This document shows, one piece after another, positions 45,497 through 61,122 of a stretch of DNA of 64,000 bases (position 1 is its first letter; each line of letters opens with the position of its first letter). The notes below the pieces were generated by a model that ran no database searches, was not told where the DNA came from, and saw only the letters and a list, made by a program, of their open reading frames with translations. Both the position numbers and the translations under genes were made by a program. Source of the stretch: Spirochaetae bacterium HGW-Spirochaetae-3 (GTDB lineage Bacteria > Spirochaetota > Spirochaetia > Treponematales > UBA12059); assembly GCA_002839315.1 (NCBI GenBank), contig PGXV01000002.1, positions 62,001-126,000 on the forward strand. Reading direction: 5' to 3'.

Positions 45497-46200
45497 GCTC
45501 CCGTTTCGACGCTCTGAGGGAGGAGGCGTTCGAGGCCAACATGGCCATCCCCAGATTCGGGCTGGCTATACTGACCTGGGGCAACGCCTCAGCCTTCGAC
45601 CCCGCGGCGGGCGTCATGGCCATCAAGCCGTCCGGCCTCGAGTACGACCGGCTGAGTCCTTCTGATATGGTTATCGTCGACATGGACGCGACCGTGGCGG
45701 AGGGCTCGCTCAGGCCGTCGTCGGATACGAAGACGCACCTGGAACTGTACCGGAGCTTCGCCGGCATCCGGGGCGTCTGCCATACGCACTCGACCTACGC
45801 GACCGCGTGGGCCCAGGCGCGCAGGTCCATCCCCTGCCTCGGGACGACCCACGCGGACCAGAGCGCCATAGCGATACCGTGCACGGCCATGATCGGCCCG
45901 GAGGCCGTAGAGCTGGACTACGAGAAGGGGACGGGAGAGCTCATCGTCGCGGCCTTCGCCTCTATAGACCCGCTACAGACGCCGATGGCGCTGGTCGCGG
46001 GCCACGGGCCGTTCACCTGGGGCGGCGGCGCCATGGCCGCCGTCCGCAACGCGGCGGCGCTCGAGGAACTGGCCCGCATGGCCTACCTATGCCTCGAACT
46101 GGAACCCGCGGCCGCCCCACTGCCCGACCACGTCGTCAGGAAGCACTGGGAACGGAAGCACGGGCCGGACGCCTATTACGGACAGGCCCGAACCCGCTGA
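45493..46200 (+). CDS. araD: L-ribulose-5-phosphate 4-epimerase
   Basis: Class II aldolase-fold zinc enzyme that turns L-ribulose 5-phosphate into D-xylulose 5-phosphate for the pentose phosphate pathway. It has the G-N-A-S phosphate-binding motif, K-P-S-G-L-E-Y, the H-T-H-S zinc pair, and the G-H-G-P-F-T-W-G loop. It starts at GTG 45493 overlapping the araA TGA. 235 residues is typical. It is the last gene of the operon and is followed by a strong hairpin shared with the convergent GH127 gene. Confidence 0.95.
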   Translation: MSSRFDALREEAFEANMAIPRFGLAILTWGNASAFDPAAGVMAIKPSGLEYDRLSPSDMVIVDMDATVAEGSLRPSSDTKTHLELYRSFAGIRGVCHTHSTYATAWAQARRSIPCLGTTHADQSAIAIPCTAMIGPEAVELDYEKGTGELIVAAFASIDPLQTPMALVAGHGPFTWGGGAMAAVRNAAALEELARMAYLCLELEPAAAPLPDHVVRKHWERKHGPDAYYGQARTR

Positions 46201-46205
46201 TCGTC

Positions 46206-46235
46206 GCGGCGGCGCGGAAGATGCCGCGCCGCCGC
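46206..46235. terminator. Bidirectional hairpin between araD and the GH127 gene
   Basis: A perfect 12-base GC stem (46206-46217 against 46224-46235) with a 6-base loop, in the 40 bases between two convergent stop codons. No T-run. Confidence 0.6.
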
Positions 46236-46240
46236 CTCCT

Positions 46241-48181
46241 TCATGTCCGGCGCATCCACACGAGCATCGAATTCAGCCCCCGGTTATCCCACGAATAGTA
46301 CGGGACGGCCTTGACCCGGACGGGCTCGCTGCCGGGGCGCAACTCGCGGTACAGCGCCCCGTCGCCCCAGCCCCCCGCCCCCCGCTCGGCGTCGAAGTAT
46401 AGCGCGACGACGCCGCCTAGCAGCTCGGGCTCGTAGCGCTCCTCGAAAGCGACGCCCCCGTCAACGGCGATATCTGATAGCAGGGGGCCGTTGTCCACTT
46501 CCTCGAGGCAGTACACGACGGGTCCGCGCATGACGGCGACCTTTCCCGCGTCGGCTATGACCGAAGGATTGGCCTCTATCAGGCGAGGCCGCATAGGCAT
46601 CGTCAAGTCGACTACGTCGCCCGGATTCCAGTCGCGGTCGATGACCAGGTAGCCGTCGCGAATATCGGTTTCGGCTCGCCCGCCTATCGCTGCGGAGAAA
46701 TCGGCGCCGCACCAGCCCGGGACGCGCACGCGCACGGTAAACCTCGCCGCCCGCTCCGGCGAGACGCGGACGCGAACGTCGCCGCTACGCGGATAGTCGC
46801 CCTCGACCGCGACGCTTACGGAGACGCCTCCGACGCTCGCGACCGTCTCGCTGGCGATATACAGGTGGACCGCCACGCCGGAATCGTCGGACGAATAGAT
46901 GTAGTCGTCTATCGACGCGATGAGCCTGGCGAGGTTGGGCGGACAGCAGGCGCAGGGGAACCAGCCCTGCCTGGTTGCCGCGGCGTAATCGGTATCGCGC
47001 CTGGCCGATATCGCGCTCGGTACCGACTCGAGCAGGTTCACGTAGAAATATTTCTTACCGTCGAGGGATATGCCGGACAGCACCCCGTTGTACAGCGCCC
47101 GCTCGGCTACGTCGTAGTATATGCCCCTCGTCTCGAGCCTGGCCATCCTGCGGGCCCAGAACACGAGGCCTATGGACGCGCAGGTCTCGTTGTAGGTCGT
47201 GGCGTTAGGCAGGTCGTAGTCCTTGGAGAACCCCTCCCAGAAATCCTGCTGGCCGATGCCTCCGGTTATGAACATCTGGCGCTTCGTCACGTCGTCCCAT
47301 AGCGTGCGGCACGCCTCGGCCAATCCGGCGTCGCGGTTAATCGCCGCCAAGTCGGCCATCGCGCTGTACATGTACACGGCCCTGACCGCGTGACCCGTCG
47401 CCGTCTTCTGCTCGCGTACCGGGAGGTGCGACTGGTTGTACTCGAACATGCGCTCCTTGAACGGGCCGAGGTCGTCGGGCTGACCGCGCGCGGCCGCCTC
47501 CTCGACGAAGAAATGGGGCTTCTTGCCGCGCTCGTCGATGAAGTAGGAGGCGAGGCGCAGGTAGCGCTCGACGCCGGTCGCCTCGTAGAGCCGCACGAGG
47601 GCCAGCTCCAGCTCCTGGTGGCCGGGGTAGCCGTGGAGCTTCCCGTCCTCCGGGCCGTATACCGAATCGATATGGTCGGCGTTCTTCATCATGATCTCGA
47701 GCAGGCGGCGCTTGCCCGTCGCCCGGTGATACGCGACGGCGGCCTCTATCATGTGCCCAGAGACGTATGTCTCGTGGCTCTCCCGCTCGTTCCTCCAGCG
47801 GAGCTCCGGATGCGCGAGGGTATAATGCGTATTAAGATAGCCGTCGGGCAGCTGGGCCTCGCCGATCAGCTCTATCGTATCGTCGGCCAGCCTCTCGAGG
47901 CTCTCGTCGGGGCCGCTGGCCAGCGAGTAGGCCACGGCCTCGAGCCACTTGGCCACGTCGCTGTCCTGGAACCTGTATCCGTAGAATTCGCCCTCCTCGC
48001 GGCCGGCCGCGATCCTGAAGTTGGCTATCGCGTGGCTCTTGGCCACGTCTTCCACCCGGTCGTTCATAACCTCCCACTGATAGGGGACGATCACGTTCCT
48101 GACGAGGTCCCTGTACGATGTCCAGAAAGGGTCGCTGACCCTGGTCGAAGACGCCCCGCCCGTCGTAGTAGTAGATTTCAT
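46241..48181 (-). CDS. GH127 beta-L-arabinofuranosidase
   Basis: Zinc- and cysteine-dependent glycosidase that releases beta-linked L-arabinofuranose. Compared with the characterised enzyme HypBA1, the acid/base Glu lies in F-W-E-G-F-S, the zinc ligands in N-E-T-C-A-S (16 residues later, the same spacing) and the C-A-C-C-P-P-N run at 409-415, where C411 is the expected nucleophile. It has an (alpha/alpha)6 barrel and C-terminal beta domains, 646 residues, and no signal peptide, so it acts in the cytosol on imported oligosaccharides. AGGAGAA precedes the ATG. It is the last gene of the ABC importer operon. Confidence 0.95.
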   Translation of the reverse strand: MKSTTTTGGASSTRVSDPFWTSYRDLVRNVIVPYQWEVMNDRVEDVAKSHAIANFRIAAGREEGEFYGYRFQDSDVAKWLEAVAYSLASGPDESLERLADDTIELIGEAQLPDGYLNTHYTLAHPELRWRNERESHETYVSGHMIEAAVAYHRATGKRRLLEIMMKNADHIDSVYGPEDGKLHGYPGHQELELALVRLYEATGVERYLRLASYFIDERGKKPHFFVEEAAARGQPDDLGPFKERMFEYNQSHLPVREQKTATGHAVRAVYMYSAMADLAAINRDAGLAEACRTLWDDVTKRQMFITGGIGQQDFWEGFSKDYDLPNATTYNETCASIGLVFWARRMARLETRGIYYDVAERALYNGVLSGISLDGKKYFYVNLLESVPSAISARRDTDYAAATRQGWFPCACCPPNLARLIASIDDYIYSSDDSGVAVHLYIASETVASVGGVSVSVAVEGDYPRSGDVRVRVSPERAARFTVRVRVPGWCGADFSAAIGGRAETDIRDGYLVIDRDWNPGDVVDLTMPMRPRLIEANPSVIADAGKVAVMRGPVVYCLEEVDNGPLLSDIAVDGGVAFEERYEPELLGGVVALYFDAERGAGGWGDGALYRELRPGSEPVRVKAVPYYSWDNRGLNSMLVWMRRT

Positions 48182-48212
48182 GCGTTATTCTCCTGAGTAT
48201 GATGCTCGCCCA

Positions 48213-49046
48213 TTATTTCATGCCGGTCATGACTATCCCCTCCTGGAAATACTTCTGGAGGGATAGGTAGAGGACGACGATGGGCGCGAGGGTAAAGACC
48301 GATGCGGCCATCAAGAGGTCGTACCGGGTCGCGTACAGTCCCTTGAACGACGCGAGGCCCAGCTGAACGGTAAATTTGCTCGCCGAGTTAATATAGATGA
48401 GCGGATTCATGAAGTCGTTATAGGATTGCTGGAACACGAAGATGACCACGGTCGCGAGTATCGGCTTGGATAGCGGCATGATTATCTTCCACCAGATCCT
48501 GAGCCTGGAGTACCCGTCGACGAAGGCGGCCTCGTCGAGCTCCTTCGGGATGGTCATGTAGAATTGGCGAAGGAGGAACACGACGAACGCCTGGCCGAAC
48601 ATGCCCTTGGCGATCAGCGGGATGAAGGTGTCGATAAGCCTGAGCTTGCCGAACATCAGGAAGGTCGGGATCATGGTCACGGTAGACGGCACCATCATCG
48701 AAGCGATGAAGAGCATGAACAGCGCGTCCCTGCCGGGGAATCGCAGCCTCGCGAAGGCGTACGCGGCCAGCGACGACGAGAGGATGCAGAGCGTCGTATA
48801 CGGGATAGCCACGATCATCGAATTGACGAACATGCGGGAGAAATCGAGGCCGCCGGCCCGCCACGCGCTTGCGTAATTCTTGAACGACCAGACCTTGGGG
48901 AAGAATGACGGCGGGAAGCGGAATATCTCCGCCTGCGGCTTCACCGACGACAGCAGCATCCAGAGGAACGGCACCAGATCCACGACCGCCATCGTTATCA
49001 GTAGCGCGTACGCTAGCGCGTGCGCGCGTTTCTTCAGTTTAGGCAT
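48213..49046 (-). CDS. Sugar ABC transporter permease (MalG type)
   Basis: One of two inner-membrane subunits of the arabino-oligosaccharide importer. Six membrane helices in 277 residues; the ATPase-contacting EAA loop is visible as E-L-D-E-A-A-F-V-D-G near residue 180. It starts at ATG 49046, nine bases after the other permease gene. No ATP-binding subunit is encoded in the window, so a shared MsmX/UgpC-type ATPase elsewhere must energise it. Confidence 0.93.
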   Translation of the reverse strand: MPKLKKRAHALAYALLITMAVVDLVPFLWMLLSSVKPQAEIFRFPPSFFPKVWSFKNYASAWRAGGLDFSRMFVNSMIVAIPYTTLCILSSSLAAYAFARLRFPGRDALFMLFIASMMVPSTVTMIPTFLMFGKLRLIDTFIPLIAKGMFGQAFVVFLLRQFYMTIPKELDEAAFVDGYSRLRIWWKIIMPLSKPILATVVIFVFQQSYNDFMNPLIYINSASKFTVQLGLASFKGLYATRYDLLMAASVFTLAPIVVLYLSLQKYFQEGIVMTGMK

Positions 49047-49055
49047 CTCGTCCCC

Positions 49056-49952
49056 TTATAGGTCGTATTGGACCCTGTCGCCAAGGAATTTATTCTGGAT
49101 CAGCGACACCACGATGATTATCGCGAACAATACCATCGCCTGGGCGCAGGCATAGCCCATCTCTCCGTACTTGAAGGCGTTCGACCACAGGTAGTACGCG
49201 ATCGTATGCGTCGAGTATCCGGGCCCTCCGGACGTCATGATATATATCTCGGTGAAGACCTGGAACGCGTATATCACCGACGTCAGGATCACGTAGTAGA
49301 ACGCGGGCGTCAGCAGCGGCAGCTTGATATACAGGATCTTCTTGAACCCGGTAACCCCGTCGAGTTCCGCGGCCTCGTAGAGCTGGCGCGGTATTCCCTG
49401 GAGGGCGGCCAGGATGATGAGCATGTTGTAGCCGGCCTCCTTCCACATATACATGATCGCTATGCTGTAGATCGACACCTTCGGGTTGGTCAGCCAGCCG
49501 ACGGGCGGGACGCCTACCAGGGACAGCAGGTAATTCAGGAGGCCGAATTCGGAATTGTACAGCCAGACGAACAGCAGGGCCACGACCAGCACCGGCGATA
49601 CGACGGGCAGGTAGAAGATGGTCCTGAAGGCGCGTATGCCGCGGATAGGCAGGTCCATCGCCAGCGCCAGCACGAGCGACGCGAGGATCGATAGCGGTAC
49701 GTAGACGACCACCCACTTGAACGTATTGAAGAGGCTGATACGGAAGACCTCGTCGGTCGCCAGGCGCGCGTAGTTGCCGATCCCGGCGAACGTGATCCTG
49801 CCCGACAGGTTCCAGTTGAAGAAGCTTATCCCCAGGGAAGCGAGGATCGGATAGAGCATGAAGACGACGAAGCCGAAGAGGGCCGGGGCGATAAACAGGT
49901 ACCCCTCGATCATATCGCGCCTCTTCAGCCTGCCTGCGGTGCGATGGTACAT
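49056..49952 (-). CDS. Sugar ABC transporter permease (MalF type)
   Basis: Partner permease, 298 residues, six membrane helices, with the EAA loop Y-E-A-A-E-L-D-G near residue 195. The start at ATG 49952 follows GGAGGAA; the open frame continues upstream into the binding-protein gene but that part is not coding. It lies 80 bases after the binding-protein gene with a hairpin in between, and nine bases before the MalG-type gene. Confidence 0.93.
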   Translation of the reverse strand: MYHRTAGRLKRRDMIEGYLFIAPALFGFVVFMLYPILASLGISFFNWNLSGRITFAGIGNYARLATDEVFRISLFNTFKWVVVYVPLSILASLVLALAMDLPIRGIRAFRTIFYLPVVSPVLVVALLFVWLYNSEFGLLNYLLSLVGVPPVGWLTNPKVSIYSIAIMYMWKEAGYNMLIILAALQGIPRQLYEAAELDGVTGFKKILYIKLPLLTPAFYYVILTSVIYAFQVFTEIYIMTSGGPGYSTHTIAYYLWSNAFKYGEMGYACAQAMVLFAIIIVVSLIQNKFLGDRVQYDL

Positions 49953-49993
49953 GAGTCTTCCTCCTGCGGGGAATAGGCGCGAAGCGCGAGCGC

Positions 49994-50020
49994 GGCCGGG
50001 TCCGGCGTCGGGACCCAGCC
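49994..50020 (-). promoter_or_regulatory. Intercistronic hairpin between binding protein and permease genes
   Basis: A 10-base stem with one wobble pair and a 7-base loop, just after the binding-protein stop; a second smaller GC hairpin follows. Such stems commonly cause partial termination or protect the binding-protein message, raising its level over the permeases. Confidence 0.5.
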
Positions 50021-50032
50021 GCCTCGTCGTCG

Positions 50033-51319
50033 TTATTTGAATACGTCCTTGTTGGCCTTGGCGTCTATGGCGCGTACCGCCTCGGCGACGCCGAGGGATC
50101 CGTTGAACACGAGGTCGAGCTGGGCGGAGATGATATCCTGGAACTGCGCGTACTTGCCCGTCGCGACGCACTCGTACTGCACCTTGGGGTCGAGATAGGC
50201 CCCGGTCGCCACGAATGGATCCTTCGCGGGCGGCTCGCTGACGAATCCGGGCTCGTTAAGCAGCCGCTTATACGAAGGCATGCCTATGCCCAGGGCGGTT
50301 ACGAGCCCGAGGCTCTCGTCGCTGAGTATGTGCCTCAGCAGCGCGACACTCAGCTCGGGGTTCGCCGCCTTGGCGTTGCACGCGAGGCCGGCGGTGATGA
50401 TAGGATTGAGGCGGGTCGTGCCCATGGGCATCTCGACCGCCGACCACTTGAAGCCGGCGCAGGTCTCGCGGTAGGTCGGGACCGCCCAGCGGCCGGTCGG
50501 GAACATCGCTACCTTGCCGGTCTCGAAGAGCTGAGTCTGGGACATGCCCATGCTGGAGACGGCCGACGGCGACGGCGAGCTCTTGTCGTCCACGATGACG
50601 GCGCGCATCGCCTCCAGGCCCTTGATGACGGCGGGGGAGTCCCAGTTGGATTTCCCGTCCTTGAACCACTCTCCGCCGTAGTTGCCGATGAAGGCCATCC
50701 AGTCTGCCCGGTAATTCTCGAGCGCGGTCCCGTACTGGGAGACGCGTGCTCCGTCCGTCTTGGTAAGGCGCCTCGCTATATCCCTATAGTCGTCGACGGT
50801 CCACGCCGACGTCGGCAGGGGTATGCCCTCGGCCGCGAACAGGTCCTCGTTGATATACATGACTATGGGCTGCCAGTCCTTGGGTATGGCGAAGAGCCCG
50901 CCGTCGACCTGGCCGTATCGGAGCAGACCGTCGACGAAATCGTCGGTAAGCTCGGGATACTTCGCGGCGTAGGGAGCGAGGTCGAGGCATACGCCGTCGC
51001 GGGCGTACTGGGCGATTCGCCCCTCGGCCAGGTAGAATACGTCCGGCGTCGTACCGCCGGCGATCATGGTCTGCAGCTTGGTATAATAATCGTCCGGGGT
51101 AAAGATGAAATTCACCTTGACGCCTGGATTCGCGGCTTCGAAGGACTTGAGGACCTTGTCGTACATCAGGCGCTCGGCCTCGTCGCCCCAGCTCATGAAC
51201 GAGACCGTCCCCGAGAGTCCGCCGCCGGCCTTGGCGGGCGGCTCCTTCCCGCCGCACGATACGAGTACCGCGATCGCGGTCGCGATCGCCATTACCGCGA
51301 GCATAGTGCCTTTTCGCAT
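50033..51319 (-). CDS. Sugar ABC transporter substrate-binding lipoprotein
   Basis: Captures the sugar outside the inner membrane for import. The signal peptide ends in V-L-V-S-C (Cys at about 22); the mature protein has the family I fold with F-M-S-W-G-D-E at the start, D-V-F-Y-L near 95 and aromatic residues (W in K-D-W-Q-P-I-V) that could stack on sugar. ATG 51319 follows AAGGAGG. 428 residues. First gene of the four-gene importer/GH127 operon. Specificity for arabino-oligosaccharides is inferred from the operon. Confidence 0.93.
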   Translation of the reverse strand: MRKGTMLAVMAIATAIAVLVSCGGKEPPAKAGGGLSGTVSFMSWGDEAERLMYDKVLKSFEAANPGVKVNFIFTPDDYYTKLQTMIAGGTTPDVFYLAEGRIAQYARDGVCLDLAPYAAKYPELTDDFVDGLLRYGQVDGGLFAIPKDWQPIVMYINEDLFAAEGIPLPTSAWTVDDYRDIARRLTKTDGARVSQYGTALENYRADWMAFIGNYGGEWFKDGKSNWDSPAVIKGLEAMRAVIVDDKSSPSPSAVSSMGMSQTQLFETGKVAMFPTGRWAVPTYRETCAGFKWSAVEMPMGTTRLNPIITAGLACNAKAANPELSVALLRHILSDESLGLVTALGIGMPSYKRLLNEPGFVSEPPAKDPFVATGAYLDPKVQYECVATGKYAQFQDIISAQLDLVFNGSLGVAEAVRAIDAKANKDVFK

Positions 51320-51387
51320 GTCTTTCCTCCTTGGAAATTCCGTGGAAGCGGTCGATCCGCCCCTCACCGCGTCGAGCTACGGCTATA

Positions 51388-51416
51388 TTGACACATTTAG
51401 ACCGAACGGCAAGAAT
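51388..51416 (+). promoter_or_regulatory. Candidate promoter of the AraC-family gene
   Basis: Perfect TTGACA (51388-51393), 17 bases, AAGAAT (51411-51416). It lies in the 113-base divergent region with the importer operon, so a regulator bound here could act on both. Confidence 0.5.
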
Positions 51417-51432
51417 CCAATAGGTGTACAAA

Positions 51433-52278
51433 ATGAGTACGATTCCGACCTCCGCGCCATCATCGCTCGCATTCGGTTGCCCTTCGCCGTTGGACGTAGA
51501 GAACGGAGGCCTCTTCGTAAGCCGGGGGTCGGGACGCCACCCGGATCGCGTCCTCGCGTCGTACGAGATAATGCTGGTCGTACGCGGCGAGCTCCGGCTC
51601 CGGGAACCGGACGCCGGATACGAAGTAAGCCCGGGCGGGTACCTGATACTGGTCCCCGGGGTCAGGCACTGGGCCGAGGAGGACTTCCCGCCTGACCTGG
51701 AGTTCTTCTGGCTGCACTTCAGGCTCCTGCCGGGGAAGTCCAAGGCGGGACGAGGCGAGGGGCTCGCGATACCGAGAACGGGTCGGGCGAGCGACCCCGA
51801 TCGCCTGTCGGAATTGTTCCGCTGGTTCCTGGACGCGCAGGAAAAGGGAAAGCTCGACAAGAGGCTGGCCAACGTCCTCTGCGTCACGATGCTCGTACTG
51901 CTGGCCAGTGAGCCGGGGCGCGAGGACGACGAGCGCATACCGCTGATCGCCAGGCAGGCCAGGCGAATACTGCTCAAGTCGTTCCTGGAAGACATATCGA
52001 CGGGAGGACTAGCAGGGCGGCTCGGGTGCAATCAGGACTACCTCGGGCGCGTCTACAGGCAGAGCTTCGGAGCTTCCGTCATGAGCGACATGCACTCGAT
52101 GCGCGTCCGCCTGGCGAAGAGGCTACTCCTCGACGAGAGGCTCAACGTCAACCAGGTATCCGTACAATGCGGCTATTCCGACGCCACCTATTTCAGGCGG
52201 ATGTTCAAGCGCTTCGAGGGCGTATCGCCGCGAGCGTACCGGGAAATGTACTCGTATACGCACATCAATCGGGTATAG
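51433..52278 (+). CDS. AraC-family transcriptional regulator
   Basis: A 281-residue activator-type regulator with an N-terminal cupin sugar-binding domain (G-G-Y-L-I-L-V-P-G-V-R-H-W near 70-85) and a C-terminal double helix-turn-helix (about 180-280) ending in the F-K-R-F-E-G-V-S-P-R-A-Y-R signature. The start at ATG 51433 has AGGTG six bases before it; GTG 51424 is an alternative that would sit seven bases after the -10. It is divergent from the importer operon, its most likely target, and convergent with the GH42 gene (three-base gap). Confidence 0.9.
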   Translation: MSTIPTSAPSSLAFGCPSPLDVENGGLFVSRGSGRHPDRVLASYEIMLVVRGELRLREPDAGYEVSPGGYLILVPGVRHWAEEDFPPDLEFFWLHFRLLPGKSKAGRGEGLAIPRTGRASDPDRLSELFRWFLDAQEKGKLDKRLANVLCVTMLVLLASEPGREDDERIPLIARQARRILLKSFLEDISTGGLAGRLGCNQDYLGRVYRQSFGASVMSDMHSMRVRLAKRLLLDERLNVNQVSVQCGYSDATYFRRMFKRFEGVSPRAYREMYSYTHINRV

Positions 52279-52281
52279 GCG

Positions 52282-54288
52282 CTATTGAGCTGGTCCCGTC
52301 GGCACCTTCGCCCAGTCCCAGGGGCCGAGCGTGACGCCGTACGCTCGGCGGCGGCGGGGGGAATGGTTGAGCACGAGGCGCCACGACCGGCCTTCGGAAT
52401 CGCGGCGGACGACGGACTCGACGTCCGCGCCGACGAAGCGCGGCCTCAGGCCGGCCGCCCTGAGGATCCGCCTGTACAGCATGAGCATCGCGATCGGGTC
52501 GGGACTGGTGCCGATGTACCAGACGAGGCCCTCGCCGACGCGGTTGACGGTAGCCGCGGGATATCCGCGATAGAATTTGCCCCGGTCGGTCCATACGGCG
52601 ACGGCCTCGGCCGAACCGGGCTCTATGATGTCGGCCCATACGGAACCGCGGCCGGGTACGGCGCCTACGCGCAGCCGGGCCCTCGTAGCGTTGAGCGACT
52701 CGAAACGCGGGACCGTAACGCCCGCGAGCTCGGCGAACACTCCCGGTAGCGGGGCCTCGACGTTACGGTCCCTAAGGTCGCGCGCTCCGGCGCGGTACCC
52801 GAGTACCAGCGAGCCGCCCCGCTCCACCCAATCAGCGAGCCGCGCCGCGAGGGCGGGATCGGCCATCTGGTACAGCGGCAACGACACGACCCGGTACTTC
52901 TCCGTATCGAGCGAGCGGGTCGACGACACGTCGGCGCCGACGCCGAGCGTGGCGTATGGGGCGAACCATGACGCGAGCTCCTTGTCATAGCCCGCCTGTA
53001 CGGTCGGGGACGCCCGGAGGAGGAGGCCCGTGGACAGGTACTGCTCGCGGAGGACGCGCGCGTCGTCCTTAGAATACGCGACGCACACGGGGCTCTCCAC
53101 GCGTTCGCCGGCGATAGACGACAGCTCGGCCGCGGCCCGCTTCATCATCGCGGCTATGACGCGCAGCCGCTCCGTCTCCCGATCATCGCCGTCGACGAGA
53201 CCGTAGCACAGCTGTTCCTGCCCGAACGGAGCCGTACGCCAGCGGAAGAATACTATGCGCTCGGCGCCCCTCGCGACGGCCTGAACCGCCCACAGCGCGA
53301 CCCGGGATTCCGGCGGCAGGTGGCCGAGGCAGGCGTGGCCCTGGAAGCCCGACATCTCCTCCATCACCGTGAACGGGCCGCCGCCGCGTAGCCCTCGCGC
53401 GTACGATTGCGCTACCGCGTTGAACTGCCACGGCAACGGCTCGTCCTGGTCCCCCCATACGGGATAATTATCCCATGACGCGAAGTCCATGCCCTCGGTC
53501 AGGGCCTCCATGTCTATGGCGTTGGACAGAGGCGGAGGGAACAGGTTCGTCGTTATCCATTGCCGCGGCGACGCGGAGGCGCGGAGCGCGCCGGTCTGGG
53601 CCTGGGCGAAACGCTCCGCGGAATCAGAGCAGAAGCGATCGTAGTCGAGCGTCAGCGCGGGATTCTGCGCGCTGGAAGGCTGCAGGCCGGCGACCGGCAC
53701 CTGTTCGAAATTAGCGTAGGTGGTATTCCAGAAGACGGAACCCCACGCCTCGTTGAGGGCGCCTATATCTCCGTAACGCGCCGTCAGCCAGCGCGGCCAC
53801 GCGGCGCGGCAGTGAGCGCAGGCGCAGCGGTCCGAGCCTTCGTGCCCTATCTCGTTGTCCACCTGAAAACCCGCGACTCGGACGTCGCCGCCGTACCGCT
53901 CCGCGATCGCGCGGACCACGCGCAGGGTCGCCGACGCATACTCGGGCGCGTTGTAGCACAGGTTGCGCCTGGTACCGTACGCGTGCGGAACGCCGGAGGG
54001 AGAGACGCGGAACACCGGCCGATCCGAGAGCCATTGCGGGGGAGTAGCGGTAGGCGTGCCGACGACAACATGGAGCCCCGCGGCGGACAGCGTACCTATC
54101 GCCCTGTCGAACAAGGAGAAGTCGAAGCGGCCTGGTTCGGGCTCCACGACCGTCCAGGCGAACTCCATGAGCCGGACGCACCGAAAGCCGTACCCGGCGA
54201 TGCGCTCCGCGTCGATCCCCCACCGCGACTCGTCCCACTGTTCCGGGTACCAGTCGACCCCGAATTCCAGGCCGCCCATCGGGTTCAT
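52282..54288 (-). CDS. GH42 beta-galactosidase
   Basis: Cytosolic glycosidase that cleaves terminal beta-galactosides, typically from plant galactan or arabinogalactan oligosaccharides. It has an N-terminal TIM barrel with G-V-D-W-Y-P-E-Q-W, the acid/base Glu in Q-V-D-N-E-I-G and the nucleophile Glu in V-M-E-E-M-S-G-F, a C-x-C-x-x-C zinc-type cysteine group near 155, and trimerisation and beta domains behind. 668 residues, no signal peptide. The start ATG overlaps the adenylate cyclase stop (ATGA), so it is translationally coupled to that gene. It complements the GH127 enzyme for arabinogalactan-type material. Confidence 0.93.
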   Translation of the reverse strand: MNPMGGLEFGVDWYPEQWDESRWGIDAERIAGYGFRCVRLMEFAWTVVEPEPGRFDFSLFDRAIGTLSAAGLHVVVGTPTATPPQWLSDRPVFRVSPSGVPHAYGTRRNLCYNAPEYASATLRVVRAIAERYGGDVRVAGFQVDNEIGHEGSDRCACAHCRAAWPRWLTARYGDIGALNEAWGSVFWNTTYANFEQVPVAGLQPSSAQNPALTLDYDRFCSDSAERFAQAQTGALRASASPRQWITTNLFPPPLSNAIDMEALTEGMDFASWDNYPVWGDQDEPLPWQFNAVAQSYARGLRGGGPFTVMEEMSGFQGHACLGHLPPESRVALWAVQAVARGAERIVFFRWRTAPFGQEQLCYGLVDGDDRETERLRVIAAMMKRAAAELSSIAGERVESPVCVAYSKDDARVLREQYLSTGLLLRASPTVQAGYDKELASWFAPYATLGVGADVSSTRSLDTEKYRVVSLPLYQMADPALAARLADWVERGGSLVLGYRAGARDLRDRNVEAPLPGVFAELAGVTVPRFESLNATRARLRVGAVPGRGSVWADIIEPGSAEAVAVWTDRGKFYRGYPAATVNRVGEGLVWYIGTSPDPIAMLMLYRRILRAAGLRPRFVGADVESVVRRDSEGRSWRLVLNHSPRRRRAYGVTLGPWDWAKVPTGPAQ

Positions 54289-55940
54289 ATCTCGACGGGC
54301 TTGGGAGCGATGGCCTTGCGCAGGCATGTCTCCAGGTAGAAGCGGGACGCGCCGTCGTCAGGCACGTTCTCGAGGGCGCGCTTGAAGTAGAATACGCCCT
54401 GCGAATAGTCCTTCTGGTAGTACGCCATCATCCCCTGCTCGAAGAAGGTATTCGACTTCATCTTCCGCTCGAACAGCTCCTCGGGCAGGCCGTCGAATAT
54501 CTCGAATACGGATACCGGCGCGTCCTTGCCCTTCACGCGGACCTTGCCGATGAAGCGGTACTTGTACTTGCCCGGGTCCTCGAGGAGCATGAACGTACGC
54601 TCGCTTATGACCAACGGTATGTTGAACGCCTTGGCTATGCTCTGGAGCCTGGACGACAGGTTGACCGCGTCGGATATCACGGTACCCTCCATGCGGTCTG
54701 AGACGCCGACCACGCCGAGCATCAGGGGGCCGGTATGGATGCCGATGCCCATGGAGATGGGCCGGTAGTTCATGTTGGCCCGGTGGCCGTTGTACTCTAT
54801 CATCTTCATCTGCATCTCTACCGCGCTCTCGACGGCTTGGTCGGCCCCGCCGTTCTTCGCGAACAGCGCCATGATGCCGTCGCCCATATACTTGTCTATG
54901 AAGCCCTCGTGCGCGTTGATCACGGGCACGACGCGGGACAGGTACGAATTGATGAACGCGAAGCTCTCCTCGGGGGTTAGCCGCTCGGACAGCTCGGTAA
55001 ACGCTCGTATATCCGAGAAGAAGATGGTCATATCCTTCTTGACGTGGTCGCCCAGCCTCAGGTCGAAGAAATCCTGCTTCTGCAGGTGCTCGAGGAATTC
55101 CGTCGGTATGAAGCGTTTTATCGAGGCGCCTATCATCGCGGCGTAGTCGTCCAGGGCCGTATCCTCCGGAGCGGGCTTAGCCAGCTCCAGCATGGCCGCC
55201 AGGAGCGTCGCCAGCCCCATCAGCCCGTCGGCGGCCGTCATCGCGGGGCCCGCGTATCCATCCAGGGACGCGGCGAAGCCGAAGCCTAGAAGCCTGGCCA
55301 ACGACAGGAAGGCCGCCGCCGCCCAGACCGCGCCCCACGGGACCGATCCGCCGATGAGCCTGGAGGCGGCGGGAGCGCCCTTGGCCGCGGCGGCGAAGAA
55401 CGGCGTCGAGCTAAGCGCGTGCAGGGCCAACAGGATGATGGCGGCGGTCTCTATGAACGCGTAGCTTGAAGGCCCCAGGACGGCGCCGGCGATAGCGGCA
55501 AGCGCCACCGCGCCAGCGACCGCGTACGATGATACGCGCCAGGATTTCCTTATCGTCATATCGCACGTCAGGTCAGTCAGATAGGCGATCGCGGCGCGCG
55601 AGGCGGCGAAGAAAAGGAGCGCCACAGGAAGATGCGGCAATCCGGCCGCCTCGGCGACGAGCGGCGCCGTGTATACCGATAAGGAAGCGCCATAGTACAA
55701 CGCGGCCGCGCGATATACTCGGGCGCGCCTTCTATATGCCGCGAGCGCTATCGAAAACGAGAGCAAGGCAAGCCAGAAAGCGAGTATTCCGAATCTAACC
55801 ACGGGCATTATACCGAGGATCGATTCCAATGAACTTTTCAACATCATATATGCATAATAACCTTTATAAAACGACTTTGCCATCCTAAAATAGGGATCGA
55901 CGCCCGCATCGAACATCAGGAAGCTGTGGACAGATGCCAT
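54285..55940 (-). CDS. Membrane-bound class III adenylate cyclase
   Basis: Makes cAMP from ATP. About seven hydrophobic segments (to about residue 260) form an unknown membrane sensor, followed by the cyclase domain with metal aspartates in F-F-S-D-I-R and Y-M-G-D-G, a Lys just before Y-M-G-D and an Asp in I-S-D-A-V-N (the adenine-selecting pair), and the N-L-S-S-R transition-state residues. A TPR-like helix pair ends the protein. The start is uncertain: ATG 55940 is preferred because a TTGAAT-16-TAAAAC promoter ends seven bases before it; the open frame extends to 56006 by TTG, and ATGs at 55883 and 55847 are alternatives. None has a good ribosome site. Confidence 0.85.
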   Translation of the reverse strand: MASVHSFLMFDAGVDPYFRMAKSFYKGYYAYMMLKSSLESILGIMPVVRFGILAFWLALLSFSIALAAYRRRARVYRAAALYYGASLSVYTAPLVAEAAGLPHLPVALLFFAASRAAIAYLTDLTCDMTIRKSWRVSSYAVAGAVALAAIAGAVLGPSSYAFIETAAIILLALHALSSTPFFAAAAKGAPAASRLIGGSVPWGAVWAAAAFLSLARLLGFGFAASLDGYAGPAMTAADGLMGLATLLAAMLELAKPAPEDTALDDYAAMIGASIKRFIPTEFLEHLQKQDFFDLRLGDHVKKDMTIFFSDIRAFTELSERLTPEESFAFINSYLSRVVPVINAHEGFIDKYMGDGIMALFAKNGGADQAVESAVEMQMKMIEYNGHRANMNYRPISMGIGIHTGPLMLGVVGVSDRMEGTVISDAVNLSSRLQSIAKAFNIPLVISERTFMLLEDPGKYKYRFIGKVRVKGKDAPVSVFEIFDGLPEELFERKMKSNTFFEQGMMAYYQKDYSQGVFYFKRALENVPDDGASRFYLETCLRKAIAPKPVEI

Positions 55941-55947
55941 TTCCCGT

Positions 55948-55975
55948 GTTTTACTAATCAAACGGTAGCATTCAA
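55948..55975 (-). promoter_or_regulatory. Candidate promoter of the adenylate cyclase/GH42 unit
   Basis: Minus-strand TTGAAT (55975-55970), 16 bases, TAAAAC (55953-55948), seven bases before ATG 55940. The surrounding 56000 region is AT-rich. Confidence 0.35.
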
Positions 55976-56021
55976 TAGTTGAAATTAATATATTCCGAGG
56001 TCTCAAATCGATACGTAACGA

Positions 56022-56050
56022 TTGAAATTAAACTGATGCTCGGATAAACT
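56022..56050 (+). promoter_or_regulatory. Candidate promoter of the hydrogenase operon
   Basis: TTGAAA (56022-56027), 17 bases, TAAACT (56045-56050), giving a leader of about 47 bases with a G-run ribosome site. Two ATCGAT sequences flank an AT stretch in the leader (56068-56086). No Rex-type TTGTGAA-N-TTCACAA site is visible. Confidence 0.5.
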
Positions 56051-56103
56051 GTCGTCGAAATACTATCGATATGTTTTTATCGATGTTTATAGGGGGGAAC
56101 AAC

Positions 56104-56583
56104 ATGGCAGTGGCTCAGATCGAGTTTTCAAAAGAACTCCAGAGCTTCATACGCGAGTGGAAAGACAAGCCAGGTAGCTTGATCATGATACTCCATCGCG
56201 TACAAGAAGAGTTCAGCTTCATTCCGCGGGAAGCCGCGGAACGGCTATCCAGGGATTTAAATATGCCCTTGGCCAAGATCTACGGCGTAGTCACGTTCTA
56301 TCACTACTTCAAGACCACGAAGCCGGGCAAGCATCGCATCGCGATATGCCTCGGTACGGCCTGCTACCTGAAGGGCGGGCAGACGCTACTCGAGGAAGCC
56401 GAGAGCATCCTGGGTATCAAGGGTAACGAAGTCACCGAAGACGGGCTTTTCTCCATCGACGCTGTCCGTTGCGTCGGTTGCTGCGGCCTGGCTCCCGTAA
56501 TAATGGTCGGCGACGAAGTCTACGGTAAGCTCACCAAGGACCAGATGCCGGAAATAATCGCCAAGTACAAGAACCTCGGATAA
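56104..56583 (+). CDS. hndA: Hydrogenase subunit HndA/HydC (NuoE-like, [2Fe-2S])
   Basis: Small thioredoxin-fold electron-transfer subunit of a multimeric [FeFe] hydrogenase. The two cysteine pairs that hold the [2Fe-2S] cluster are C-L-G-T-A-C and C-V-G-C. An N-terminal helical bundle (1-75) precedes the fold. The start is ATG 56104 behind a GGGGGGAA ribosome site; the frame upstream is leader. 159 residues is the usual size. First gene of the five-gene operon. Confidence 0.94.
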   Translation: MAVAQIEFSKELQSFIREWKDKPGSLIMILHRVQEEFSFIPREAAERLSRDLNMPLAKIYGVVTFYHYFKTTKPGKHRIAICLGTACYLKGGQTLLEEAESILGIKGNEVTEDGLFSIDAVRCVGCCGLAPVIMVGDEVYGKLTKDQMPEIIAKYKNLG

Positions 56584-56587
56584 TCGG

Positions 56588-57127
56588 ATGCATTTCGCCG
56601 TCTGCGACTTCCTCCTCGACTTGGTTCAGAATTCGGTAGAGGCCGGCGCGATGACGGTTACCGTCAGCGTCGCCGAGGAGCGGAACGTGGTAGAGGCGAC
56701 CGTCGAGGACGACGGCGAGGGAATGGACGGAGAAGAGCTGGCGAAGGCCAAGGATCCGTTCTATACGGACGGACGGAAGCATTCCAGAAGGAAAGTAGGC
56801 CTCGGCATACCGTTCCTGCTGCAATCGCTTTCACTGGCCGGAGGGTCCCACGAGTTCTCTTCCCGCAAGGGAGAGGGAACGAGACTCTCGTTCAGCTTCC
56901 CGGCGGACGGCATCGATACGCCCCCCTTGGGCGACGTAACGGGCCTCTTCCTCTCGGCGATGTGCTTCGACGGCGATTACGAGCTTATAGTACGGCGACG
57001 GGCCCCGGCCCGCGGCGTCGATTACGAGATCAGGCGGTCCGAGATCATCGAGGCCGTCGGTCCCCTGACCGACGCGGGCGCGCTGGTATCGGTCCGCGAA
57101 TTCCTGGCTTCGCAAGAAGCCTCGTGA
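56588..57127 (+). CDS. HATPase-domain protein within the hydrogenase operon
   Basis: A 179-residue protein with a histidine-kinase-type ATP-binding fold: N box (L-V-Q-N-S-V-E-A-G-A), G1 (E-D-D-G-E-G-M), the K-D-P-F-Y-T-D-G lid region, G2 (G-L-G-I-P-F) and G3 (G-E-G-T). There is no phospho-accepting histidine domain or receiver. The last 70 residues are a separate domain I do not recognise. It starts four bases after hndA. Similar genes are known to me in hydrogenase operons of clostridia-like anaerobes, but their role is not established; it may sense nucleotide state or act as a serine kinase. Confidence 0.85.
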   Translation: MHFAVCDFLLDLVQNSVEAGAMTVTVSVAEERNVVEATVEDDGEGMDGEELAKAKDPFYTDGRKHSRRKVGLGIPFLLQSLSLAGGSHEFSSRKGEGTRLSFSFPADGIDTPPLGDVTGLFLSAMCFDGDYELIVRRRAPARGVDYEIRRSEIIEAVGPLTDAGALVSVREFLASQEAS

Positions 57128-57143
57128 CGAAAGGAACCATAAA

Positions 57144-57539
57144 ATGGCGAAAATGACCCTGGAACAGCTCAGGAAACTCCGCGAGGAGAAGAAGGGCGAT
57201 ATGGTCAGGCGCGACGTCGAAGGAAAGAACATCCAGATCATCGTGGGCATGGGCACCTGCGGAATAGCCGCGGGAGCCAAGCAGACATTCGATGAGATAG
57301 TCAAGGTCGTGGACGAGAACAAGATGACGGCCGACGTGATCATCAGGCAGACGGGCTGCATGGGCCTCTGCCACGTCGAACCGACCGTCGAGATCGTCAT
57401 GCCCGGCATGCCGGCGACCATCTACGGCAAGGTCGACGTACCGACCGCGCGAGAGATAGTAATAAAGCACGTCGTCGGCAAGACGCTCGTCGAGAACCAT
57501 ATCTACGATCGGCCCGCGGTCGATATCGTCAAGAAATAG
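57144..57539 (+). CDS. hndB: HndB-like small hydrogenase subunit
   Basis: A 131-residue thioredoxin-like protein resembling HndB of the NADP-reducing hydrogenase of Desulfovibrio. It has a charged helical N-terminus (1-30), the G-M-G-T-C-G-I-A-A-G-A loop and C-M-G-L-C further on. The first cysteine expected in a [2Fe-2S] protein of this fold is a glycine, leaving three, so its cluster would need a fourth, non-Cys ligand or be absent. It lies 16 bases before hndC. Confidence 0.9.
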   Translation: MAKMTLEQLRKLREEKKGDMVRRDVEGKNIQIIVGMGTCGIAAGAKQTFDEIVKVVDENKMTADVIIRQTGCMGLCHVEPTVEIVMPGMPATIYGKVDVPTAREIVIKHVVGKTLVENHIYDRPAVDIVKK

Positions 57540-57555
57540 GGCGGAGGCCGAAATC

Positions 57556-59343
57556 ATGGCGTACAAGCACTTTATATTGGTCTGCGGCGGTACCGGATGC
57601 GAATCCAGCCACTCGGACGAAATTTACAAGGAACTCATCGCGAACGCCGAGGCGATGGGCGTCAAGGACGACGTCCAGGTCGTCAAGACCGGTTGCTTCG
57701 GCTTCTGCGAGAAGGGCCCGATCGTCAAGGTCCTGCCGGACGAGTCTTTCTACGTCGAGGTGAAGCCGGGCGACGCGAAGGAGATCATCGCGGAGCAGAT
57801 CGTCAAAGGCCGCGAGGTAAAGCGGCTCCTGTACAAAGACGAGAGGCAGAAGGACCGCATTAAGGTAGAGGACATCGACTTCTACCAGAAGCAGTACCGC
57901 ATCGTCCTCCGCAACTGCGGCATCATCAATCCGGAGAACATAGACGAGTACATAGCCCGTGACGGGTACGCCGGCCTCGAGAAGGTGCTTACTTCGATGA
58001 AGCCGGACGACGTGATCGAGGAACTCAAGGCTTCGGGCCTCCGCGGCCGCGGCGGCGCCGGATTCCCGACCTGGCGTAAGTGGATGTTCTCCAAGGGCGT
58101 CCCCGCCGACCAGAAGTACGTCGTCTGCAACGCCGACGAGGGCGACCCGGGCGCGTACATGGACCGCTCGACGATAGAGGGCGACCCCCACTCGGTCATC
58201 GAGGCGATGACCATCTGCGGCTACACCGTCGGATCGAGCAAGGGCTTCGTCTATATCCGCGCCGAGTATCCTCTCGCCATCGAGCGCCTCAAGATAGGGC
58301 TCAGGCAGGCCCGCGAGTACGGCCTCCTCGGCGACAACATACTGGGCACGGGCTTCTCGTTCGACATCGAGATTCGGCTCGGCGCCGGCGCCTTCGTCTG
58401 CGGCGAGGAGACCGCCCTGCTGCAGTCCATCGAGGGCAACCGCGGCATGCCTATCCCTCGTCCGCCCTTCCCCGCGGTCAAGGGACTCTGGGGCAAGCCG
58501 ACGATCATCAACAACGTCGAGACCTGGGCCAACATCCCGGTCATCATCACCAAGGGCGCTTCCTGGTTCGCCAAGATAGGCACCGAGACGAGCAAGGGCA
58601 CCAAGGTGTTCGCGCTGACCGGCAAGATCAACAACTCCGGCCTCGTTGAGGTGCCGATGGGCACGACGCTGAGGGAGATAATCTTCGATATCGGCGGCGG
58701 CATCAGGGGCGGCAAGAAGTTCAAGGGCGCCCAGACCGGCGGACCGTCCGGCGGCATCATCACCGAGGAATTCCTCGACCTGCCTATCGACTACGAGGCG
58801 CTTACGTCGCTCGGCTCGATGATGGGCTCAGGCGGGCTCATCGTCATGGACGAGGACGACTGCGTCGTCGACGTTTCCAGGTTCTACATGGAATTCTGCG
58901 TAGACGAATCGTGCGGCAAGTGCTCTCCCTGCCGTATCGGCACGAACCAGATGCACGCCATCCTCGTCAAGATCACCAAGGGTCAGGGCACGATGGAGGA
59001 CCTCGAGAAGCTCGAGAAGATCGGCCTCGCGATGAAGAAGGCGGCGCTCTGCGGCCTCGGGCAGACCGCCCCGAACCCGACCCTTTCCACCATCAGGCGC
59101 TTCCGCGACGAGTACGTCAAGCACATCGTCGACAGGCAGTGCAGCGCCGGCAAGTGCAAGGACCTGGTCGTCTATAGCATAGACAAGACGAAGTGCATAG
59201 GCTGCGGCCTCTGCGCGCGCAAGTGCCCGGTCAACTGCATCTCGGGAGACAAGACTCAAAAGTACACTATCGACGCTTCGAAGTGCATCAAGTGCGGCGA
59301 GTGCTTCAAGGCCTGCAAGTTCAGCGCCGTCGTGAAGAAATAA
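57556..59343 (+). CDS. hndC: Hydrogenase subunit HndC/HydB (NuoF-like, FMN, NAD(P)H-binding)
   Basis: Diaphorase subunit where NAD(P)H is oxidised or formed. 595 residues in order: a thioredoxin-like [2Fe-2S] domain (C-G-G-T-G-C and C-F-G-F-C); the NuoF core with the G-R-G-G-A-G-F-P nucleotide loop, the N-A-D-E-G-D-P-G-A FMN loop, and the E-S-C-G-K-C-x-P-C [4Fe-4S] site; and two C-terminal ferredoxin motifs, C-I-G-C-G-L-C-x-x-x-C-P and C-I-K-C-G-E-C. This layout is the one found in Hyd/Hnd enzymes, some of which bifurcate electrons between NADH and ferredoxin; bifurcation cannot be decided from sequence. Confidence 0.96.
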   Translation: MAYKHFILVCGGTGCESSHSDEIYKELIANAEAMGVKDDVQVVKTGCFGFCEKGPIVKVLPDESFYVEVKPGDAKEIIAEQIVKGREVKRLLYKDERQKDRIKVEDIDFYQKQYRIVLRNCGIINPENIDEYIARDGYAGLEKVLTSMKPDDVIEELKASGLRGRGGAGFPTWRKWMFSKGVPADQKYVVCNADEGDPGAYMDRSTIEGDPHSVIEAMTICGYTVGSSKGFVYIRAEYPLAIERLKIGLRQAREYGLLGDNILGTGFSFDIEIRLGAGAFVCGEETALLQSIEGNRGMPIPRPPFPAVKGLWGKPTIINNVETWANIPVIITKGASWFAKIGTETSKGTKVFALTGKINNSGLVEVPMGTTLREIIFDIGGGIRGGKKFKGAQTGGPSGGIITEEFLDLPIDYEALTSLGSMMGSGGLIVMDEDDCVVDVSRFYMEFCVDESCGKCSPCRIGTNQMHAILVKITKGQGTMEDLEKLEKIGLAMKKAALCGLGQTAPNPTLSTIRRFRDEYVKHIVDRQCSAGKCKDLVVYSIDKTKCIGCGLCARKCPVNCISGDKTQKYTIDASKCIKCGECFKACKFSAVVKK

Positions 59344-59355
59344 GGAGTAGGCCCA

Positions 59356-61122
59356 ATGGTCAACGCCAAGATAAACGGAATCCCCGTTCAGGTCGCCGAA
59401 GGCACTTCGATCCTCGACGCGGCCAAGAAAGTCAACGTACGCATCCCTACGCTCTGCTATAACGACGACCTCCCCCCGTGGGCGGCCTGCGGCATCTGCA
59501 TCGTGAAGGCGGAGAAGAATCCCAAGATGCTCCGCGCCTGCTGTACCCCGCTCGAGGAAGGCATGAGCGTCATCACCCACGATCCGGAGATAGTCCAGGT
59601 ACGCAAGACGGTGATCGAGCTGATCCTGTCCACCCACCCGGACGACTGCCTGCAGTGCCCACGCAACGGCTCCTGCGAGCTGCAGACCCTGGCAGCCGAA
59701 TTCGGCGTCCGCGAGCAGCCGTTCGAGAAGCGCCTCCGCGACCTGCCGATAGACACGTCCACCGGGTCGCTGATACTTAATCCTGACAAGTGCATCCGTT
59801 GCGGACGGTGCGTACTCGTATGCCAGCAGATGCAGAACGTCTGGGCCATCGAGTTCCTCGGCCGCGGAGAGAGCACGCGCATCGCGCCCGCCGCGGACGT
59901 CAAGCTCGCCGAGGGCCCTTGCATCAAGTGCGGCCAGTGCGCCGCGCACTGCCCCGTGGGCGCCATCTACGAGAACGACCAGACGAAGGAAGTCTGGGAC
60001 GCGCTCATGAAGGGCGGCGACGACGCCAAGACGTGCGTCGTGCAGATCGCCCCGGCCGTTCGCGTCGCGCTCGGCGAGGAATTCGGCCTCGAGCCGGGTT
60101 CGCTCGTCACCGGCAAGATATATACGGCCCTCAGACGACTCGGATTCGACATGGTATTCGATACCAACTTCTCCGCGGACCTGACGATCATGGAGGAAGG
60201 CACCGAGCTCGTGAAGAGACTAACCGACTTCCTTGGAGGCAAGAACAAGGAGCTGATGCCGCTGATCACCTCCTGTTGCCCGGCCTGGGTCGATTATATG
60301 GAGAAGTACTACTCGGATATGATACCGAACTTCTCCACGGCCAAGAGCCCCCAACAGATGATGGGAGCGATGATCAAGACCTTCTGGGCCGAGAAGACCA
60401 AGATCGACCCCAAGACGATCTATTCCGTGTCGATAATGCCGTGCACGGCCAAGAAATGGGAGTGCGGCCGCAACGACGACATGCGCAGCTCGGGCTCGCA
60501 GGACGTCGACGTCGTGCTGACGACCCGCGAGCTGGCCCGCATGATAAAGCAGGCCGGTATCGACCTGGTCAACCTGCCCGAGGAAGAAGCCGACAGCCCG
60601 CTGGGCCCCTACACCGGCGCCGGCACCATCTTCGGTACCACCGGCGGCGTTATGGAAGCCGCGCTCCGCTCCGCGTACTACCTTATCACCAAGGAAGACC
60701 TGAAGGACGTCAACTTTACCGGCGTCCGCGGCATCTCCGGAATAAAGGAAGCCCGTATCCATATCAAGGACCTCGAGGTCCGCGTCGCGGTGGCCCACCA
60801 GATGGGCAACATAGCGGCCGTGCTCGAGGAGGTCCGCAAGGCCAAGGCCGAGGGCAAGGACATCCCGTGGCACTTCATCGAGGTGATGGCGTGCAGGGGC
60901 GGATGCATCGGCGGCGGCGGCCAGCCCTATGGGGCCACCGACGAGGTTCGCCAGAAGCGCATGAGGGGACTCTACTCCGACGACGAGAAGAGCACGCTAC
61001 GCTGCTCGCACCATAACCCGGCCATCCAGTACGTGTACAAGGAGTTCCTCGGCGAGCCCAACGGGCACAAGGCGCACGAGCTCCTGCATACGAAGTACAA
61101 GAAGCTGGAACTGTACAAATAG
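59356..61122 (+). CDS. hndD: [FeFe] hydrogenase catalytic subunit HndD/HydA
   Basis: Makes or oxidises H2 at the H-cluster. 588 residues: an N-terminal [2Fe-2S] ferredoxin domain (four Cys in about 34-62), the His-Cys3 [4Fe-4S] motif H-P-D-D-C-L-Q-C, two [4Fe-4S] motifs (C-I-R-C-G-R-C and C-I-K-C-G-Q-C), then the H-cluster signatures L1 T-S-C-C-P-A-W, L2 M-P-C-T-A-K-K-W-E and L3 M-A-C-R-G-G-C-I-G-G-G-G-Q-P. All cluster ligands are in place. Maturases HydE, HydF and HydG are not in the window. Last gene of the operon, 12 bases after hndC. Confidence 0.97.
   Translation: MVNAKINGIPVQVAEGTSILDAAKKVNVRIPTLCYNDDLPPWAACGICIVKAEKNPKMLRACCTPLEEGMSVITHDPEIVQVRKTVIELILSTHPDDCLQCPRNGSCELQTLAAEFGVREQPFEKRLRDLPIDTSTGSLILNPDKCIRCGRCVLVCQQMQNVWAIEFLGRGESTRIAPAADVKLAEGPCIKCGQCAAHCPVGAIYENDQTKEVWDALMKGGDDAKTCVVQIAPAVRVALGEEFGLEPGSLVTGKIYTALRRLGFDMVFDTNFSADLTIMEEGTELVKRLTDFLGGKNKELMPLITSCCPAWVDYMEKYYSDMIPNFSTAKSPQQMMGAMIKTFWAEKTKIDPKTIYSVSIMPCTAKKWECGRNDDMRSSGSQDVDVVLTTRELARMIKQAGIDLVNLPEEEADSPLGPYTGAGTIFGTTGGVMEAALRSAYYLITKEDLKDVNFTGVRGISGIKEARIHIKDLEVRVAVAHQMGNIAAVLEEVRKAKAEGKDIPWHFIEVMACRGGCIGGGGQPYGATDEVRQKRMRGLYSDDEKSTLRCSHHNPAIQYVYKEFLGEPNGHKAHELLHTKYKKLELYK

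Follow-up and report, generated by a model that had tools for sequence, protein, structure and literature searches.

A class III adenylate cyclase gene overlapping a GH42 beta-galactosidase gene opposite an [FeFe] hydrogenase operon in a spirochaete

The locus and its two proteins

On the minus strand of a contig from Spirochaetae bacterium HGW-Spirochaetae-3, a gene for a membrane-bound class III adenylate cyclase ends where a gene for a GH42 beta-galactosidase may begin. The window, meaning the whole 64,000-nucleotide stretch that was analysed, contains the following features at and around this junction:

41219 to 52278, no strand assigned: arabinose-use island encoding a LacI-type regulator, FGGY kinase, AraA, class II aldolase, GH127, ABC transporter and AraC-type regulator (Pfam)
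52282 to 54288, minus strand: cytosolic GH42 beta-galactosidase, 668 amino acids from ATG 54288 (Pfam, alignment to 1kwg)
54285 to 54288, minus strand: ATGA, joining the cyclase stop TGA and a possible GH42 start ATG (direct reading)
54285 to 56006, minus strand: class III adenylate cyclase with seven transmembrane helices and a TPR-like tail, 573 amino acids from TTG 56006 (Pfam, alignment, model)
55884 to 56103, no strand assigned: intergenic and leader sequence between the divergently arranged cyclase gene and hydrogenase operon, containing ATCGAT-N8-ATCGAT
56071 to 61122, plus strand: divergent operon for an NADH-dependent [FeFe] hydrogenase, with HndA-like, ATPase-like, 2Fe-2S, NuoF-like and group A6 hydrogenase genes (NCBIfam)

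The true start of the cyclase likely lies further in than TTG 56006, at or below ATG 55883. Its Guanylate_cyc domain scores far above the curated Pfam cut-off (87.5 bits against 21.9, E=1.1e-24), NCBIfam models gave no match, and the closest solved sequence is CyaB of Pseudomonas (3r5g). Alignment with CyaB finds D332, K372, D376, T442, N449 and R453 all in place; we take these to be the two metal aspartates (D332, D376), the base-selecting pair (K372, T442) and the transition-state residues (N449, R453). A Lys/Thr pair is typical of adenylate rather than guanylate cyclases. The enzyme is intact by sequence and is predicted to make cAMP from ATP. It shares these metal, base-selecting and transition-state positions with CyaB but differs in its divergent seven-helix membrane part and TPR-like tail. 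In the predicted structure seven N-terminal helices precede the output domain (pLDDT mostly 80-94) and, together with the Pfam match, bear out the original prediction of a seven-helix class III cyclase. The catalytic domain was poorly modelled in both predictions, which had shallow alignments, and no conclusion is based on it. The same genome contains 13 class III cyclase matches and 17 cyclic-nucleotide-binding matches over the cut-off. In one relative, G007, the cyclase occupies two reading frames (L034 2132-3683), its membrane and catalytic parts overlapping by a few bases; either the gene is split or the sequence contains an error.

The membrane region of the window cyclase has no match to Pfam 7TMR-DISM_7TM, and relatives at loci L046, L052 and L053 reach only sub-threshold scores (22-28 bits against a cut-off of 29). 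Profile comparison of the two 7TM regions gave a probability of 79% (P=1.6e-5), and that of the window protein looks distantly related. Like the 7TMR-DISM receptors NicD of Pseudomonas and RgsP of Sinorhizobium, the cyclase places a seven-helix region ahead of a signalling output domain. Unlike them it begins at the membrane helices and has no periplasmic DISMED1 or DISMED2 domain, which is usual but not universal in such receptors. More distant orthologues, in families f4 and f2 and genera g8 and g9, do carry a periplasmic domain ahead of the membrane region. As modelled, this domain looks like the jelly-roll domains of both beta-galactosidases and beta-glucuronidases of GH2 (Foldseek probability 0.96-1.0, with E only 0.008-0.06), a further likeness to the receptors. 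The relatives' seven-helix model resembles GPCR-like bundles with Z about 15, where unmatched helical models can reach 13-14. That the membrane domain acts as a sensor, as was proposed originally, is plausible, but the window cyclase does not have the periplasmic domain of its distant paired counterparts.

The downstream protein matches Glyco_hydro_42 (E=4.8e-100, 336 bits) and the GH42M trimerisation domain (E=7.8e-37, 127 bits); none of the NCBIfam models gave it a name. Its closest solved structure is the Thermus A4 enzyme (1kwg, E=2.2e-82), with which it shares both domains, E146 and E310, and C111, C155, C157 and C160. These are presumably the acid/base residue, the nucleophile and the four zinc cysteines, respectively. 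The protein is intact by sequence and is predicted to hydrolyse beta-galactosides. Inspection by eye of its N-terminus, MNPMGGLEFGVDWYPEQW, found no signal peptide, and it is therefore taken to be cytosolic, in agreement with the earlier description. In contrast to other GH42 beta-galactosidases, its gene lies downstream of a signalling enzyme and not in a recognised galactoside operon.

The 11-kb arabinose island sits between a trio of lipoprotein genes and the GH42 gene, and is context rather than part of the pair. At L032 and L033 the GH42 gene and lipoprotein gene LP1 are convergent and about 170 bp apart, with no island, and they are likewise convergent and close at L110, where the island is also absent. 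The island is therefore a recent insertion in this lineage, and it cannot explain the old pairing of cyclase and GH42. A suggested role in galactan or arabinogalactan use leaned on this island and loses its footing, since the island is missing at this place in the relatives examined. At 52278-52284 the GH42 and AraC-type genes converge so closely, their stops only 3 nt apart, that a terminator would not fit between them.

On the other side, the group A6 hydrogenase is assigned by NCBIfam FeFe_hydrog_A6 (809.9 bits against a cut-off of 765). Its operon is the most constant neighbour of the cyclase, lying divergently beside or near it in most relatives. The ATCGAT-N8-ATCGAT element, at 56065-56084 in the hydrogenase leader, occurs once in this genome and occupies the same place in 7/7 members of the genus that hold the locus; it is a candidate operator. 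A search from 51 to 57 kb for a CRP-like site (TGTGA-N6-TCACA, at most two mismatches) found none.

The overlap and translation of the GH42 gene

Direct reading of the minus strand confirms that ATGA (54288..54285) is common to the two genes. TGA at 54287-54285 ends the cyclase reading frame 56006..54285, and ATG at 54288-54286 opens an in-frame GH42 reading frame that ends at 52282. Such a layout is common, not unusual. A -4 in-frame start occurs in 5 of the 35 same-strand neighbouring pairs of the 64-kb window, as called from simple codon usage, and between genes in 1,695 prokaryote species distances of -4 and -1 far exceed all others in frequency (PMC10666635).

The GH42 start itself is ambiguous. 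Three in-frame ATGs are available, at 54327 (43-nt overlap), 54288 (4-nt overlap) and 54279 (5 nt past the stop), and the start in relatives mostly falls near the equivalent of the last. In G007 the ATGA overlap is also present and no other upstream GH42 start exists, which supports the overlap reading in that genome. For G003 and G006 the ATGA is a possible start, but a better one lies 11 nt past the stop, with strong Shine-Dalgarno pairing (-9.5 and -9.3 kcal/mol). In the window, 54288 and 54279 both have weak Shine-Dalgarno pairing (-3.0 kcal/mol); the GH42 gene has -3.1 at L034 and -5.8 at L035, and elsewhere -7.3 to -10.5 kcal/mol.

The overlap is confined to genus g1, and in relatives outside it the gaps, where measured, span 15 to 161 nt: 15 (L053), 16 (L052), 31 (L044), 64 (L045), 65 (L039), 150 (L050) and 161 nt (L051). 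In experiments, coupling is nearly abolished at gaps of about 20 nt or more, while a 5-nt gap is still compatible with reinitiation (PMC10666635). The mostly long gaps and mostly strong Shine-Dalgarno sites of other relatives thus make translational coupling plausible in this lineage only. The original prediction of coupling accordingly holds up in part, on the ATGA and weak Shine-Dalgarno pairing of the window, but does not extend to most relatives. In ATGA, -4 nt distance and weak Shine-Dalgarno site the pair resembles the coupled overlapping genes of Huber et al. (2019, PMC6728339; 2023, PMC10666635). It differs in that cyclase and GH42 are not known subunits of one complex and in that the overlap is not retained outside the genus. 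Synthesis of the two enzymes at a fixed ratio, also proposed, was rejected: reinitiation sets no ratio (PMC10666635; PMC6728339), and the downstream product of overlapping pairs can exceed the upstream one several-fold (PMC6728339).

A scan of the cyclase/GH42 junction found no terminator-like site. At the corresponding place in G056 (L045 300-377), a GC-rich hairpin-like stretch followed by CTTTTTC was noticed by eye, and the two genes may be transcribed apart in that genome.

The pair among relatives

Relatives of both proteins were sought in 59 relatives and then in 394 genomes of the order. A cyclase gene followed directly by an orthologous GH42 gene on the same strand was found in 16 genomes including this one, so the pairing is neither private to this organism nor limited to one family. 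Twelve belong to family f1 (G000, G003, G006, G007, G010, G011, G014, G015, G017, G019, G020, G022) and four to family f4 (G028, G056, G065, G080); some of the paired GH42 genes run past contig ends. G071 has the two separated by opposite-strand genes spanning about 3.4 kb, and in G012, G013, G031, G117, G131 and G135 a GH42 gene is present without an adjoining cyclase. In a quick tree of GH42, the cyclase-paired copies group apart from those of f5 and G013 with SH-aLRT 100, the unpaired copy of G012 falling inside the group. On this grouping, one linked gene has probably been inherited. A quick tree was also made for the cyclase, in which the position of G025 is an artefact of a wrongly phased sequence and is disregarded. 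A search of the available literature for a cyclase/beta-galactosidase operon in spirochaetes found nothing relevant.

The constant element of the locus is the cyclase, not GH42, which is often lost. Seven f1 genomes have an orthologous cyclase and no GH42 match (G002, G004, G005, G008, G009, G016, G018); their completeness is 94-99% in five, 87% in G002 and 67% in G008. Consequently, the cyclase cannot exist mainly for galactoside use. At L031, L036, L059 and L003 the lipoprotein gene LP1 follows the cyclase in the place expected for GH42. At L041, in f4, a TPR gene and a nucleotidase-like gene follow it, with GH42 missing and the row otherwise unchanged. No convincing GH42 remnants were found downstream of the cyclase in the loci that have no GH42.

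In f4, g8 and g9 the cyclase and GH42 genes are followed by one for a TPR protein and then by one for a lipoprotein. This lipoprotein has Metallophos and 5_nucleotid_C domains, and among NCBIfam models it comes closest to 2',3'-cyclic-nucleotide phosphodiesterases, at scores below cut-off. The row is seen at L052 7076-13683 and L099 6393-13054, and without GH42 at L041 6001-9455. It is old and is the presumed ancestral layout. The pair has persisted in genus g1 and nearby genera despite changed genes downstream of GH42, and the gap shrank to an overlap, which could reflect selection for coupling.

Conservation of the pair was set against two tight pairs from the same window in the same genomes, a small control. 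The pair 18244/19518 (gap of 2 nt) is adjacent in 19/19 f1 genomes with both genes, and the pair 32646/34295 (overlap of 4 nt) in 17/20, as well as in the f5 genomes G031, G039 and G051. Of the 13 f1 genomes with both cyclase and GH42, 12 have them side by side, and their adjacency is thus no better conserved than that of the two controls. The idea that cAMP production and galactoside use answer to one cue is not supported, given this comparison and the seven cyclase-bearing genomes without a GH42 match.

A probable ordinary operon and its possible regulatory meanings

The locus is probably best explained as an old, ordinary two-gene operon of cyclase and GH42 opposite a group A6 [FeFe] hydrogenase. 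The two genes are probably co-transcribed, and in this lineage ribosomes are likely to reinitiate where they overlap. The shared strand, the overlap and the lack of a terminator-like site at the junction make a single message likely; it would most likely start in the region shared with the divergent hydrogenase operon. Given the weak Shine-Dalgarno pairing at the GH42 start in this genome and in G007, ribosomes that reach the end of the cyclase gene probably reinitiate at the ATGA. Most other relatives have a strong Shine-Dalgarno site for GH42 itself, and there its translation is probably independent. The cAMP made by the cyclase would act through at least one of the cell's many cyclic-nucleotide-binding proteins, and beta-galactosides, once imported, would be cleaved by GH42. 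Regulation may link cAMP to galactosides; with a pair no more conserved than other tight neighbours and a GH42 gene that is often lost, the evidence does not require such a link.

The readings that depart from this explanation differ in what they make of the overlap, of the membrane domain and of the hydrogenase. Translation of GH42 might begin at ATG 54279 without any dependence on the cyclase, the ATGA being incidental, as would fit relatives that begin at or near this position, mostly with Shine-Dalgarno sites of their own. This is a serious but doubtful alternative, as pairing in the window is no stronger for that start than for 54288 and a 5-nt gap still permits reinitiation (PMC10666635). 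An unlikely reading makes the seven-helix cyclase a sensor of a galactoside or of what it is broken down to; the cyclase would raise cAMP in response and be produced along with the enzyme for using that sugar. Inheritance of the pair in two families is consistent with such a role, as are the GH2-like periplasmic domain of paired cyclases in f4, g8 and g9 (at the marginal Foldseek E-values given above), the sub-threshold 7TMR-DISM_7TM matches of some of them, and the link of the DISMED2 domain of the diguanylate cyclase NicD to carbohydrate binding (PMC8544897). However, the cyclase is kept in seven family members with no GH42 match, in the window it has no periplasmic domain, the scan of 51-57 kb for a CRP-like site with up to two mismatches found nothing, and the control pairs are equally conserved.

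The cyclase could instead work with the divergent hydrogenase in redox or hydrogen signalling, with GH42 as a passenger. The hydrogenase operon lies by the cyclase even where GH42 does not adjoin it (L031, L036, L037, L060, L061, L055, L041), and the conserved ATCGAT-N8-ATCGAT lies between them in genus g1. This too is improbable: in genus g9 (L052, L053) two GntR-like-pair genes replace the hydrogenase while cyclase and GH42 stay together, in g8 several genes intervene, and the element, being in the hydrogenase leader, may control that operon only. Quite a long shot, finally, is an ancient module of a sugar-sensing 7TMR-DISM-like cyclase, GH42, the TPR protein and the nucleotidase- or cyclic-nucleotide-phosphodiesterase-like lipoprotein opposite the [FeFe] hydrogenase. 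In it cAMP would report external galactosides, and the window lineage would have reduced the module to the coupled pair.

For now, the main lesson of the locus is that a tempting ATGA overlap needs checks of overlap conservation and of control pairs before regulatory meaning is drawn from it. Were the link between the two enzymes functional, it would tie a bacterial receptor cyclase to one sugar hydrolase and offer a rare handle on what the cAMP systems of spirochaetes sense.
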